Source: Chthoniobacterales bacterium
GTDB lineage: Bacteria > Verrucomicrobiota > Verrucomicrobiia > Chthoniobacterales > UBA10450
Assembly: GCA_035274845.1 (NCBI GenBank)
Contig: DATENU010000019.1
Coordinates: 1 to 64,000 of the forward strand
Length of the DNA stretch: 64,000 bases
Direction: 5' to 3'
A program made the translations under genes and the position numbers. A model generated the notes under the pieces. The model did no database searches. It saw only the letters and a program-made list of their open reading frames with translations, and was not told the origin of the DNA. Of the stretch, positions 20,309 to 32,158 are shown in pieces. Each line of letters begins with the position of its first letter. The stretch's first letter is position 1.

Positions 20309-20773
20309 TTAATCCCACACATAACGCTCATCAAAACCGACGCCGTGCTTTCGCAGCAGATTTCGATACTCCTCCTGAAACGTGCGCGTCCGATGATGCA
20401 TTTCCTGGTCGTCGACATACCGCAAAACCGCCTGAAGCTGACTCGGACTGACCGAAAACGCGCCGAAGCCGCGTTGCCAGAAAAAACCTCGATACCGAGG
20501 ATCAAGCGTTTTGATCCATTTCGAAGACACCTTCTTTATCGTTTCAATCAGTTCCGCCTGCGACACGGTTCGCGGCAATGTCGTCACGATATGGACATGG
20601 TCCGACACCCCGCCGGCGTGCACGAATGCCGCCCCGAGGTCGCGGCAAATTGTCGCCAAATAGCCATGCATCTGCCCTCGCGCCTTCGTATCCAACCAGG
20701 GTTCGCGATCTTTCGTGCTGAAAATGACGTGAAGAATAACGTTACTGAGGGACTGGGGCATGGCGTGAATCAT
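20309..20773 (-). CDS. REP-associated tyrosine transposase (RAYT, Y1/IS200-like)
   Basis: 154 residues. HUH motif in GGVSDHVHIVTTLPRT (about residues 55-63) and candidate catalytic Tyr in LRYVDDQEMHHRTRTFQEEYRNLLRKHG (about residue 118). MPQSLSNVILHVIFSTKDREPWL and RGFFWQRGFGAFSVS are family landmarks. Such single-strand transposases cut and move REP hairpins. Here the gene sits exactly between inverted copies of candidate REPs. It appears intact, with the start at 20773. Confidence 0.93.
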   Translation of the reverse strand: MIHAMPQSLSNVILHVIFSTKDREPWLDTKARGQMHGYLATICRDLGAAFVHAGGVSDHVHIVTTLPRTVSQAELIETIKKVSSKWIKTLDPRYRGFFWQRGFGAFSVSPSQLQAVLRYVDDQEMHHRTRTFQEEYRNLLRKHGVGFDERYVWD

Positions 20774-26877: not shown

Positions 26878-27318
26878 ATGAAAAAATCTCTATTCACCTT
26901 GGTTATGGTTGCCGGGCTGGCGACGGCAGGATTTTGCGGCTCCGCGGACAGCGAATTGAAAGCGATCGAGGAAAAGTGGCTCGATGCCTACATGAAGAGC
27001 GACCCCGCCTTCCTCAAGAATCTGGAAACGGAAGACTACACCATCGTCGAACCAGAGGGACACGTCTCGACCAAAGCCGACGATGTTAAATCGGTGACCG
27101 ACAAGAAATTCGTCCTGAAATCGGCCACCATGAGTGATTTCAAGTGCCGGATGCTGGGCGACAACGCTGCTGTTGTGACCGCTACGCTGAAGATGAGCGG
27201 CACGGAAGAAGGCAAGGAATTCTCCGGCGAGTTTCGCGGGATGGACGTCTTTGAAAAGAAAGACGGTAAATGGATGGCGGTCGCCTCGCAGCTCACCAAG
27301 ATCGAGAAAGAGAAGTAA
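26878..27318 (+). CDS. Secreted NTF2-like/DUF4440-type protein
   Basis: 146 residues. The signal peptide is MKKSLFTLVMVAGLATAGFCG. The domain is SELKAIEEKWLDAYMKSDPAFLKNLETEDYTIVEPEGHVSTKADDVKSV, then AAVVTATLKMSGTEEGKEFSGEFRGMDVFEKKDGKWMAVASQLTKIEKEK, with the typical DUF4440 ending (D-F-x-K-DGKW-x-V-x-SQ). Paralogous in layout to 4053. Function unknown. Monocistronic, with a strong terminator 28 bp after the stop. Confidence 0.85.
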   Translation: MKKSLFTLVMVAGLATAGFCGSADSELKAIEEKWLDAYMKSDPAFLKNLETEDYTIVEPEGHVSTKADDVKSVTDKKFVLKSATMSDFKCRMLGDNAAVVTATLKMSGTEEGKEFSGEFRGMDVFEKKDGKWMAVASQLTKIEKEK

Positions 27319-27345
27319 AGTCTCCATCTGTCGATTGTTTTAGGG

Positions 27346-27380
27346 ACTGCCCCGAAGGTTCTTCGGGGCAGTTTCGTTTT
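27346..27380 (+). terminator. Rho-independent terminator
   Basis: Perfect 12-bp stem ACTGCCCCGAAG (27346-27357) and CTTCGGGGCAGT (27361-27372), 3-base loop, then TTCGTTTT. Confidence 0.92.
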
Positions 27381-27531
27381 AGGACTAAATCGCGTGCAGA
27401 CGCGCGCGAGAATCCCCGGTTCGGCAACGTCCAGACGGCTGCGTCCATTCGAATCATAAGAGAGCGGACGAGCTGCTCGCTCGAGCAGTCCTGCGTCCGT
27501 GAAAGGGAACGTTAACAACGAAAGGGAATCG

Positions 27532-27870
27532 ATGAAGAAGACAATTCTTAGCATCGCGCTGGCTGTGGTCGCACCATTTGCCTGGGCGCAAACGAGCAGC
27601 ACAAGCACGACAACAACGACAACAAAGACGGTGGATGGCGGCGGAACGATTACCGAGTACACGCCTGGCAGCGTAATCGTCCTGAAGGAGACAAGCGGGC
27701 CGCGGCATTACAAGTTCGGCAAGACCGTGACCTACGTGACCAAGAGCGGCAAGACGCTCGATGAAGAGACCGTGAAGACCCGCATCAAGGTGGGCATTCC
27801 GGTCCACGTGCAGTACACCACCGAAGGCGAAGACATGGTGGTGAGCCGCGTCGTCCTCGACGAGGATTGA
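27532..27870 (+). CDS. Small secreted protein of unknown function
   Basis: 112 residues from the ATG at 27532 with GAAAGGGA just upstream; an upstream Met at 27499 is unsupported. The signal peptide MKKTILSIALAVVAPFAWAQ is followed by a Ser/Thr run (TSSTSTTTTTTKT). Then comes a compact domain GTITEYTPGSVIVLKETSGPRHYKFGKTVTYVTKSGKTLDEETVKTRIKVGIPVHVQYTTEGEDMVVSRVVLDED, probably all-beta. I recognise no characterised family. Confidence 0.8.
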   Translation: MKKTILSIALAVVAPFAWAQTSSTSTTTTTTKTVDGGGTITEYTPGSVIVLKETSGPRHYKFGKTVTYVTKSGKTLDEETVKTRIKVGIPVHVQYTTEGEDMVVSRVVLDED

Positions 27871-27900
27871 TCGCTGTCTGGTTTGTTTGTTTAGGATGCC

Positions 27901-27940
27901 GCCGGCGCTTGGCCACGCTGCTGAGCGCCGGCGCTTTTTC
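27901..27940 (+). terminator. Rho-independent terminator
   Basis: Stem GCCGGCGCT (27901-27909) and AGCGCCGGC (27924-27932) followed by GCTTTTTC, 30 bp after the 27532 gene. Confidence 0.88.
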
Positions 27941-28025
27941 TCCATCAGGCCTCCACTCTCGAGGCGATTGAAGTGGTTCCAATAAGCGGGCCACTTCATC
28001 CCCACCCATCCGCATCAATCCGCGG

Positions 28026-28318
28026 CTACTGCATCGTCCTCGACGCGAGCCCAAGGAGCGGCGCTTTCCAAACCGCCGTCCCTTTCTCGGATAAAGCGCC
28101 GGATCCAATCACAATAGATTCGTTCGCTTCGAATGCTGAAATGCCTTCGCCAAATGGCGTCCCGGACTCATCGAGCAGTTTCGGCTTGTGACCGGCCAAC
28201 GCGGCGGGTACGTTCTGGGACATGCCTCCCAGTCTGGAAAATATTCATCCGGACCGCGAATCTTGATAGCTCGGAAAATCCCGCCTTTGAAGACAGGTTT
28301 TTCCAATCTACTTCTCAT
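28026..28318 (-). pseudogene. Possible frameshifted small gene
   Basis: On the minus strand an ATG at 28318 opens MRSRLEKPVFKGGIFRAIKI, then RGPDEYFPDWEA, before the frame turns into improbable Pro/Arg-rich sequence. The next frame then reads MSQNVPAALAGHKPKLLDES, GTPFGEGISAFEANESIVIG, SGALSEKGTAVWKAPLL to a stop at 28026. The two halves meet near 28223. Either a single gene with one frameshift or an unrelated small ORF (28026-28223). No family recognised. Confidence 0.3.
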
Positions 28319-28332
28319 TAGACCGCTGGCGT

Positions 28333-28638
28333 ATGCCATTCTTTCGCGTGATTCTACATGGTACTGGCATTCGGGTTCCCGATCCCGAGGGCGAGGCGCC
28401 GAGCACTGGATTCTATGTCACCCGTTCGGTCCGCGCCGCGTCAGCAGAGGCAGCGGAGGGGCGCGCGCGCGAAATGGTTTTGCGGGATTGGACCTCCGGG
28501 AAATACGCCACCCACTACGAAGGCGATCCACCAGCACTCAGTGTGGATTCAGTTTACGCTTCAACCCTGCTTGAGCATCTGCGCTTTAAGAACAGAGGAG
28601 GTCACGCGTTTTATCCGCCAGACTCGAACACAGCCTAA
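28333..28638 (+). CDS. Cassette ORF 1, unknown function
   Basis: 101 residues: MPFFRVILHGTGIRVPDPEGEAPSTGFYVTRSVRAASAEAAEGRAREMVLRDWTSGKYATHYEGDPPALSVDSVYASTLLEHLRFKNRGGHAFYPPDS. Small, soluble, no signal peptide; the N-terminal strand and central amphipathic helix suggest an alpha/beta fold. I recognise similar cassette-borne or accessory proteins only as hypothetical. The stop codon TAA is inside the attC RYYYAAC box (GCCTAAC at 28633), as is common for cassettes. Confidence 0.8.
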   Translation: MPFFRVILHGTGIRVPDPEGEAPSTGFYVTRSVRAASAEAAEGRAREMVLRDWTSGKYATHYEGDPPALSVDSVYASTLLEHLRFKNRGGHAFYPPDSNTA

Positions 28639-28755
28639 CCAAGCGATTGAGCGAATGGCTGGCAGCATTTATTCCTGACCTTTTATGAAATTCGATTCTC
28701 AACCCGTAGCGGCGCGCATTCCCGCCAGCCGTCGCTCATCTTGTTCTCGTTAGAC
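28633..28755 (+). repeat. attC site 1
   Basis: R'' box GCCTAAC (28633-28639) and R' box GTTAGAC (28749-28755). Complementary inner arms: GAGCGAATGGCTGGC on the left against GCCAGCCGTCGCTC on the right, with one extra base (bulge) on the left as expected for attC folding. Length 123 bp. Confidence 0.85.
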
Positions 28756-28757
28756 GT

Positions 28758-29201
28758 ATGCATCGCATTCTCTTTTTTTTCCTCCTTGGCGCATCATGTG
28801 CGTTAGCCGAAAAGAGCGAACCGGCGCCGCTAGATGCTCCCTATGAAAAAGTGTTCGACCCATGGCGCGCATGCACAGCCGCGGAGGGCCTCGCAAAACG
28901 CGGCGCTCCAGACGCTCTTCGTACGTGCTTTCTCGCCGCGTATGTTCGGTTGAGTCAGCCGTTCCTCGGAGGCGAAGACCTCGAGGCCATCCACCGTATC
29001 TTCCAAGAGGTGCTTCCAGCTGTGGGCGATAAGAACTTTGCCAGTGCGTTGGAAAAGCAGCGTCCGGAGATTCGTAGCGCGGCCGCTCATTTCCTGAGCG
29101 GATTTTTCAAGATTCGGGATTTCCCCAAAACCCACAAACTGCTGAGAGCAGCACCCCAGATAGATTGGCCACTCGATCGGGCGTATCGCAATGACCGCTA
29201 A
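28758..29201 (+). CDS. Cassette ORF 2, secreted protein of unknown function
   Basis: 147 residues starting 2 bases after attC1. The signal peptide is MHRILFFFLLGASCALAEK. The mature part is helical and repeat-like (FDPWRACTAAEGLAKRGAPDALRTCFLAAYVRLSQPFLGGEDLEAIHRIFQEVLPAVGDKNFASALEKQRPEIRSAAAHFL) and has paired Cys. No family recognised. The gene ends 3 bases before the next RYYYAAC box. Confidence 0.78.
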   Translation: MHRILFFFLLGASCALAEKSEPAPLDAPYEKVFDPWRACTAAEGLAKRGAPDALRTCFLAAYVRLSQPFLGGEDLEAIHRIFQEVLPAVGDKNFASALEKQRPEIRSAAAHFLSGFFKIRDFPKTHKLLRAAPQIDWPLDRAYRNDR

Positions 29202-29204
29202 GAG

Positions 29205-29365
29205 GTCTAACCAGACGATCCCGTTTCGACAGCTCAAGGCCCTGAGCAAGCCGAAGCGGAGCGAACAGCGGACCGCTTTGCGTTCACATTTGAGATGATT
29301 TCCACCCATTCACTCCGAGCGACGCGCGGTCTCGTCCGCCGTCGCTCATCTTGTTCTCGTTAGAT
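29205..29365 (+). repeat. attC site 2 (arm extended by an insertion)
   Basis: R'' GTCTAAC (29205-29211) and R' GTTAGAT (29359-29365). Compared with sites 1 and 3, the left arm carries about 38 extra bases between GACGAT and CGGAGCGAACAGCGG. That extra segment includes TTTCGACAGCTCAAGGCCCT and GAGCAAGCCGAAG, which can form their own small hairpin. The inner left block GAGCGAACAGCGGACCGC still pairs with the right block near 29318-29349. Confidence 0.75.
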
Positions 29366-29807
29366 GCTCAAACGCTTTTACATCTTGACAGCGATAGCAC
29401 TCATTACGGGATCGGCAGCGCTCGCGGGGCCGCCGGATGGGGCGACCATCGCTAACCGTATTCCATTGAAACAGCGCGACCCGACCAGAGCCGCTGAGGA
29501 GGAAATGCAGTGGATGATGAAGATCCATCGTTACACGCCGCTTCTCGCGCAGAGGGATGAGGTGGCTGAAGTCACTGAAAAGGCGAAGCGTGGTGACGCA
29601 CGGGCTTCTGCGACGACCCGCTGGGGTCATACTATCCTGAATTACAATGGCCATTCGATCAGCAACTGGTGGTTTGTCACGCCTAAAGGAAAAAGGGAGA
29701 TTTACTTCGACATGGGTCCGACGCTTTCTCACAAGGAGGACGTTCGACAAGAGTCGGGTCGAGGTCAGTATATGCTACGCATGACGCCTCCACTCAAAGT
29801 GCGATGA
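29364..29807 (+). CDS. Cassette ORF 3, secreted protein of unknown function
   Basis: 147 residues; the ATG begins inside the GTTAGATG of attC2. The signal peptide is MLKRFYILTAIALITGSAALAG. The mature part has a helical N-terminal half (DPTRAAEEEMQWMMKIHRYTPLLAQRDEVAEVTEKAKRGDARAS) and a strand-rich end (WGHTILNYNGHSISNWWFVTPKGKREIYFDMG). No family recognised. Stop 3 bases before the next RYYYAAC box. Confidence 0.78.
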   Translation: MLKRFYILTAIALITGSAALAGPPDGATIANRIPLKQRDPTRAAEEEMQWMMKIHRYTPLLAQRDEVAEVTEKAKRGDARASATTRWGHTILNYNGHSISNWWFVTPKGKREIYFDMGPTLSHKEDVRQESGRGQYMLRMTPPLKVR

Positions 29808-29810
29808 CGC

Positions 29811-29934
29811 ATTTAACCAGGCGATGGAGCGAAGGGCTGGCCGCTTTGGCTCCTCACTCTCCATGAAATTCCCACCCTCAACCGGCAGCGACGGGGCGTC
29901 CCGCCAGCCGTTCCTCATCTTGTTCTCGTTAGGT
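29811..29934 (+). repeat. attC site 3
   Basis: R'' ATTTAAC (29811-29817) and R' GTTAGGT (29928-29934). Inner left GGAGCGAAGGGCTGGCCGC pairs imperfectly with the right-side CCGCCAGCCGTTCCTC. Length 124 bp. Confidence 0.82.
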
Positions 29935-30086
29935 GTAATTCCCGGTGCCATCCAAAAGGCCGTCAGGTCGAGAGGAAGAAGCGGATCGGGCGATATGCGA
30001 AAAATCTGGCTGAAGTTATTGCCTTCGCGAAACAGCGTCAGCAAAACGTCCCGCTGAGTGACCCGCGCGAGCCACCTAAAGCCTAG
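29935..30086 (+). pseudogene. Open C-terminal-like fragment after last attC
   Basis: The frame reads HPKGRQVERKKRIGRYAKNL, then AEVIAFAKQRQQNVPLSDPR, then EPPKA and stops at 30084-30086, overlapping the hppA stop on the other strand. It has protein-like composition but no start codon after the attC box, so it may be the tail of a gene cut by cassette insertion or a decayed last cassette. Low certainty. Confidence 0.3.
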
Positions 30087-32158
30087 AAGAAAATCGGAAT
30101 GATCAGGATCGCGACGATGTTCACGACTTTGATCATCGGATTGATCGCGGGGCCGGCGGTGTCCTTGTAGGGATCGCCGACGGTGTCGCCGGTGACGGAG
30201 GCGGCGTGGGCGAAGGAGCCTTTGCCGCCGAGATTTCCTTCTTCGATGAATTTCTTGGCGTTGTCCCAGGCGCCGCCGCTTGAGGTCATCGCGATGGCGA
30301 CGAAGAGGCCGGTTACAATGGTGCCAACGAGAAGGCCGCCCAGGACCACAGGACCGAGCGGCTTGATGACCGCAACGGCGATAACAAACGCGACCGGCAA
30401 CAACGCCGGCACAATCATTTCGCGCAGGGCCGCCTTGGTCACGATGTCGACGCAGGTGCCGTATTCCGGAGTATCTTCGCCGCGCAAAATGCCGGGCTTG
30501 GCGGTTAATTGCCGCCGGACTTCACGAACAACCGCGCCGGCCGCTTTACCCACGGCGTCCATACTGAACGCGGTGAAAAGGAATGGCAGCAGGCCGCCGA
30601 TGAACAGACCGATAATGACCTTGGGCTCCGTCAGCGAAAACTGGAACGCATACGCTTTATTCCCAAGAGTAAAATGCGCCTTGAGCTCTTCGACGTAGGA
30701 ACCGAAAAGAACTAGCGCGGCCAGACCGGCTGAAGCGATGGCGTAACCTTTCGTGACGGCCTTCATCGTGTTGCCGACGGCATCGAGCTCATCGGTGATG
30801 CCGCGAATTTCCTTCGGCAGATTGCTCATCACGGCGATGCCGCCCGCGTTGTCGGTAATCGGGCCAAAGGCATCGAGAGAGATGATAATGCCCGCCATCG
30901 AAAGCATGCTCATGACGGCAATGGCGATCCCGTAGAGGCCGGCGAAATGGAAGCTGAGCAGGATGGCGATGCCGATAAAGCCGACGGGCAACGCCGTGGC
31001 GTGCTGGCCGATCGCGAGGCCCGCGATAATGTTCGTGGCGTGGCCGGTTTCGGACGCCTTGGCAATCTTCCGGACGGGCGCGTAGGCGGTGGAGGTGTAG
31101 TAATTCGTGATCACGACCACGATGCCGGTCATGAGCAAGCCGACGAGCGAGGCGAAATAGAGGTCGTTAGCAGAACGGGCAACGCCGCCGATCGTGACCG
31201 GGTCGGGGAAAAGCCAGTGGGTCGCAGGCCAATATAGGATGGCCGAAATCAATCCGCTGGCGCCGACCGCGCCCATTAGAACCGAGCCGGGTTTTCCGCC
31301 GCTGAAGTTCACGAAGAGGATGCCGATGATCGCTCCCAGGACAGAAATTCCGCCGAGGACGAATGGGAAAATAATCGCGGCCGGATAGGTGCCGAGGGTG
31401 AGCGCGCCGACCAGGATCGCGCCGATCAGGCTGACCGCGTAAGTCTCGAAAACGTCCGCGGCCATGCCGGCGCAGTCGCCCACGTTGTCGCCAACGTTGT
31501 CCGCGATGGTGGCCGGATTGCGCGGATCGTCTTCCTCGAGATTGCTCTCGATCTTGCCGACGAGGTCAGCGCCGACGTCCGCGGCCTTGGTGTAGATGCC
31601 GCCGCCAAGCCGCGCGAAAACGCTGATCAAACTCGATCCCAGAGCGAGACCGACCAGGCTTTTCACGGCCATGTCGTGACCGGCCCAGTTATTTACCAGC
31701 GTGTAAAAAATACCGACCGAGAGCAGCGCCAGACCGACGACGAGAAGACCGGTGACCGCGCCGCCATTGAACGCGACCCGCATCGCGGCGGAGCGGGATT
31801 GGCTGGCGGCCTGGGCGGTCCGGGTATTGGCCAGGACGGCGATGCGCATCCCGATATAACCAGCGGCCAGCGAACAGAACGCGCCGATCACGAAACCGAG
31901 GGCGGTAAATTTGTCGCGAAAGATGAAGAGAAGGATGAAAATGACCGCGGCAATGGCGCTGATGGTCACGACCTGGCGTTTCAAGTAAGCCTTGGCGCCT
32001 TCCTCGACCGCGCCGGCGATCTGGCGCATCCGGTCGTTCCCGGGCGAGAGCCGAATGACCGCCTTAATGAGGAAAAAGGCGAAGAGCAACCCCAGGGCGG
32101 CGCAGACCATGGAAAGCGTAACACCGGAATTGAGAATGTTGAGGGCAAGAAAAATCAT
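30083..32158 (-). CDS. hppA: Membrane-bound proton-pumping pyrophosphatase
   Basis: 691 residues with about 16 membrane segments. Couples PPi hydrolysis to H+ export. The PPi-binding loop is intact: [45 protein letters not shown], and NDN-type Asp clusters recur near the C-terminus ([21 protein letters not shown]). [24 protein letters not shown] carries Lys where K+-dependent enzymes have Ala, so this should be the K+-independent H+-pumping type (established correlation for the family). Typical in PVC and other soil bacteria as an energy-saving pump. Confidence 0.96.

Follow-up and report, generated by a model that had tools for sequence, protein, structure and literature searches.

The locus beside hppA in this Chthoniobacterales chromosome raises the question of how a row of three small genes, each followed by a candidate recombination site, came to stand there with no working integrase next to it, and whether the row still exchanges genes. 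An earlier note on the same DNA had read it as an integron gene cassette array with three attC sites and no intI in the window (the whole stretch of 64,000 nucleotides that was analysed), and as a reservoir of new secreted functions. The cassette architecture bore scrutiny: the array is chromosomal, adjoins hppA and combines ORFs with what are, judged from sequence, genuine attC sites. Each ORF has its start close behind a core site, and its stop falls within the following inverse core site or shortly ahead of it. Sites of this kind throughout the genome are followed within 30 nt by the start of a same-strand ORF of at least 80 aa in 92% of cases, compared with 26% of control positions.

Table 1 Features of the array, its surroundings and related sites. 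Positions given without a contig are those of the window; contigs given without a genome belong to the genome under study.
Feature	Position	Strand	Remarks
Extra block	27312..30080		Missing at hppA of three congeners; adds ~2.6 kb net
Small ORF inside extra block	27529-27870		
intI relic	28087..28223	-	~45 N-terminal codons; frame shift at ~28167; truncated near 28087
attI homologue	28224..28323	+	Core box 28317-28323 is ATTAGAC instead of GTTAGAC
Cassette 1	28318..28749	+	ORF 28333-28638, 101 aa, no family match
attC site 1	28633..28755	+	GCCTAAC 28633-28639 / GTTAGAC 28749-28755; covariance model 99.9 bits, E 2.5e-27
Cassette 2	28750..29359	+	ORF 28758-29201, 147 aa, signal-peptide-like start
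attC site 2	29205..29365	+	GTCTAAC 29205-29211 / GTTAGAT 29359-29365; covariance model 82.1 bits, E 4.4e-22 over 29240-29365
REP-like palindrome, 38 nt	29220..29257	+	Within L'' box of attC site 2, next to first extrahelical base
Cassette 3	29360..29928	+	ORF 29364-29807, 147 aa, signal-peptide-like start
attC site 3	29811..29934	+	ATTTAAC 29811-29817 / GTTAGGT 29928-29934; covariance model 69.5 bits, E 2.3e-18
hppA, membrane pyrophosphatase	30083..32158	-	NCBIfam match; conserved right flank, outside integron
Second integron locus (L250)	C23:710-1460		attI and attC array running to contig edge
attC sites with similar insert, own genome	C21:28229, C21:28822, C20:316047, C20:317452, C15:173271		Degenerate: C15:172130
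attC sites with similar insert, other genomes	G022:C12:41179 and 42047; G076:C243:238		

Each of the three sites consists of an RYYYAAC inverse core and a GTTRRRY core around a variable palindrome. On re-reading the window sequence, all three pairs of boxes were found where the earlier note had placed them, and the right-hand 19 bases it described as common to the sites (CTCATCTTGTTCTCGTTAG) are exact in all three. Shuffled versions of the window give 0.01 matches to this 19-mer at up to 3 mismatches. It occurs 28 times in the genome at the same tolerance, with zero occurrences of the reversed control. In the named genome collection its matches came nearly all from contigs bearing the labels Spartobacteria, Chthoniobacterales or Verrucomicrobia. 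Present throughout the genome and nearly confined to such MAGs, it is therefore a feature of the lineage and not a quirk of the window. The 19-mer is also seen in contigs labelled as other phyla (L054 and L082, labelled Bryobacterales MAG, and L085, labelled Lederbergia), which may be due to misbinning, transfer or chance.

The sites share a structure of 24 pairs forming R and L stems, in which one side has two unpaired bases spaced six nucleotides apart. This structure was drawn by eye from the sites; in an alignment of 46 sites, all from other genomes, it is 94.9% paired compared with 20-41% for slid versions, a control that favours a structure drawn in this way, while the changes affecting both sides of a pair (161 cells versus 68 in shuffles) are independent of the drawing. 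When a covariance model built from the same 46 foreign sites was run over the window, the three sites of the array were the only matches at E < 0.1, all on the bottom strand, and the next-best match had an E of 0.63. Site 3 has some pairs broken relative to the model, and site 2 is longer because it contains a palindrome insert. The model finds at least 37 sites in the genome under study and from at least 13 to at least 127 per genome in congeners. The congener at the upper end, G023, combines its at least 127 attC matches in long arrays with several intI matches (contigs C54, C20, C43, C10, C13 and others) and, on this evidence, this soil verrucomicrobial MAG holds a large collection of cassettes.

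The covariation predicts a bottom-strand hairpin with two extrahelical bases of the T-N6-G/C type, a model that the window sites fit; this spacing matches published data on attC sites that are excised efficiently (PMC3053210). When the bottom strands were folded one by one as DNA at minimum energy, the values were weak and mixed (z = -0.69, -2.80 and +1.29 for sites 1 to 3), so the structural support for the hairpins that the earlier note proposed to predict is taken from covariation within the site family. An Rfam search at a permissive threshold returned nothing relevant. From their boxes, predicted fold and model matches, we identify all three sites as attC sites.

The cassette products had been called unrecognised, and Pfam, NCBIfam and PDB sequence searches indeed gave no convincing match for any of them; the signal-peptide-like N-termini of products 2 and 3 were read by eye. 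In a search of 213 genomes of the order, the own genome among them, product 1 had no relative; it also had no match among plasmids, and its structure predicted from the single sequence reached a pLDDT of 42, too low for use. Within the same 213 genomes, relatives of product 2 occur in four other genomes, one with an attC-like site in front of it, and relatives of product 3 in three (G022, G049 and G055), where they lie beside attC sites or core boxes and occupy attC-bounded cassettes. None of the other genomes of the order searched carries two or more of these genes; gene order is not conserved among them, and a conserved operon was rejected on this ground. The surrounding locus varies as well. 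While hppA itself is present in 8 of 8 genus genomes searched (own included), blastn comparison of congener hppA regions placed the left-flank gene ~60-140 bp from hppA in G020, G023 and G025 versus ~2.77 kb in the window, and the hppA regions of six congeners contain no attC. The patchy spread of the genes, the relatives of cassette 3 elsewhere and the empty hppA locus in congeners support cassette mobility between genomes and places.

The statement that the window lacks intI holds for an intact gene but has to be amended, because the stretch immediately preceding cassette 1 contains an attI homologue and the N-terminal part of an intI gene, frameshifted and truncated. This relic is all that is left of an intI gene here. 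It was recognised by tblastn with congener integrases (best E 1e-11) and translates as MSQNVPAALAGHKPKLLDE, followed after the frame shift by VRDAIWRRHFSIRSERIYCDWIRRFIR. At its end, a short dispersed repeat with similar copies elsewhere in the genome occupies positions 28045-28080 and may mark the intI break. Positions 28091-28324 share 75% identity with the start of intI and the attI region in an intact integron of genome G022, and positions 28140-28324 share 77% identity with contig C23 of the genome under study. The assignment of the attI region is by homology to three other copies (G022, G021 and own C23), in which the aligned core reads GTTAGAC or GTTAGAT; the window core is mutated. Where the family has intact divergent integrons, a core box mostly lies 120-155 nt from the start of the IntI match, and the layout in the window fits.

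Relic and attI homologue diverge from the array in the same placing as in the intact integrons of relatives. Most relatives have this divergent layout and some an inverted-integrase layout; in L127, L128, L133, L135, L137 and L141, the core box is found just past the 3' end of intI in the same orientation, corresponding to the latter. With intI relic and attI homologue in the normal divergent place, the array is therefore very probably a decayed sedentary chromosomal integron. At the stage of an intact intI, IntI would have captured circular cassettes by joining the folded attC bottom strand of each with attI, thereby placing every new cassette next to attI. Later truncation of intI and the change in the attI core would have stopped local capture, and the three cassettes would have remained as an ordinary gene row that might still be moved by IntI supplied in trans, as described for the cassettes of CALINs (PMC12444791), arrays of at least two attC sites with no nearby intact integron-integrase. 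Tempering this account, the relic is short at ~45 codons, the attI core differs by a single base and an assembly gap in the draft genome could hide an intact intI.

Such a hidden gene would make the array part of a working integron, with an intact intI in a gap still acting on it in trans. The genome is a draft of 24 contigs (95.9% complete, 4.54 Mb), the array on C23 continues up to the edge of its contig, several integrons of congeners are likewise located at contig ends, and draft genomes overstate integrase-less arrays (PMC9024848). However, a search of the rest of the genome, proposed in the earlier note, found no IntI over the family cut-off in these 4.54 Mb, a cut-off passed in 33 of 83 family genomes, five of the seven congeners among them; the best matches look, from their sequence, like XerC/XerD-type recombinases. 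Tyrosine recombinases elsewhere in the genome scored far below the integron cut-off and were rejected as the integrase. Both attI loci found also carry a broken intI. The locus on C23 shows synteny with the intact integron of G022, and its intI retains 27 N-terminal codons followed by a small later piece; since the window intI is truncated and frameshifted and that of C23 is deleted differently, the two attI loci decayed by different lesions. Overall, we consider a still working integron unlikely. Because the draft genome contains no intact IntI that could be found, the array looks like a frozen store and not the active reservoir proposed earlier.

It is also conceivable that an IntI encoded elsewhere put the cassettes at a non-classical site by hppA, so that the array never had its own integrase. 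Off-target insertion of this kind is one published route to CALINs (PMC8618304), and most other attC clusters examined in the genome have neither attI nor intI relic, making this origin possible for them. For the window array, it is largely refuted by the presence, immediately ahead of cassette 1 and in normal divergent layout, of an intI relic and an attI homologue, and we regard it as very improbable. That the genes form an ordinary operon with dispersed repeats merely resembling attC, a reading to which the weak single-site folding energies would lend themselves, deserves virtually no credence and is refuted by the covariation with its two extrahelical bases and by the same site family adjoining intact IntI in relatives, with the attC model matching all three sites and gene order not being conserved.

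In the array read here as a decayed integron, attC site 2 carries a palindrome directly after the GAT of its L'' box that folds as a hairpin. At least five further attC sites of the genome (at least six including site 2) carry a similar insert at this position, as do sites of two other genomes (Table 1), and related palindromes are also scattered outside attC sites in the own genome. With the insert removed, site 2 shares 90% identity with an insert-free site, and one of the C21 sites shares 85% with window site 1. The closest relatives of these two insert-bearing sites are therefore insert-free, which points to independent insertions instead of one inherited event and suggests repeated insertion at a single attC position, with gene conversion as another possible source. 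We tentatively propose, giving it somewhat less than an even chance, that the palindrome inserts specifically into the attC L'' box, where its side hairpin would change or block IntI recognition, and that it would thus represent an attC-exploiting element. Precedents for attC-targeting elements are the IS1111-attC elements and group IIC-attC introns. Y1 (REP-type) transposases have nine matches in the genome, the best being a Y1-type (REP-associated family) domain in the window itself (20405-20749, minus strand). No clear palindrome copy lies beside the eight of these loci that were read, nor was one of the attC-inserted type found beside the window domain, and a link between palindrome and Y1 transposases was rejected.

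Verrucomicrobiota are already among the phyla listed with integrons (PMC8618304), and a literature search of partial coverage found no paper pairing integron integrase with Chthoniobacter. The system is thus known in kind, and in these soil bacteria it is common but little described. With two differently broken intI loci beside congeners whose intI passes the cut-off, one lineage documents how cassette arrays lose their integrase, and the cassettes of this group of Verrucomicrobiota form a large uncharacterised pool whose attC family is distinctive. If targeting by the palindrome is true, it would add a new case of an attC-exploiting element.

Among known systems, the intact G022 integron (contig C18) shares a homologous intI N-terminus, attI, the attC family and the divergent layout with the window array, but its intI is intact and its locus matches own C23 and not the hppA region. 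Xanthomonas integrons with inactivated intI (PMC12444791) are similar in having attC arrays beside truncated or lost intI and cassettes that vary among relatives. In contrast to these, the array described here belongs to another lineage and attC family, the intI lesions at the two attI loci of its genome differ from each other, and the window copy of attI has a mutated core. By its three attC sites and the lack of an intact intI nearby, the array qualifies as a CALIN, and loss of a recognisable intI is one published origin of CALINs (PMC8618304). Here, however, a recognisable attI and an intI fragment persist, and the origin of the array can therefore still be read.
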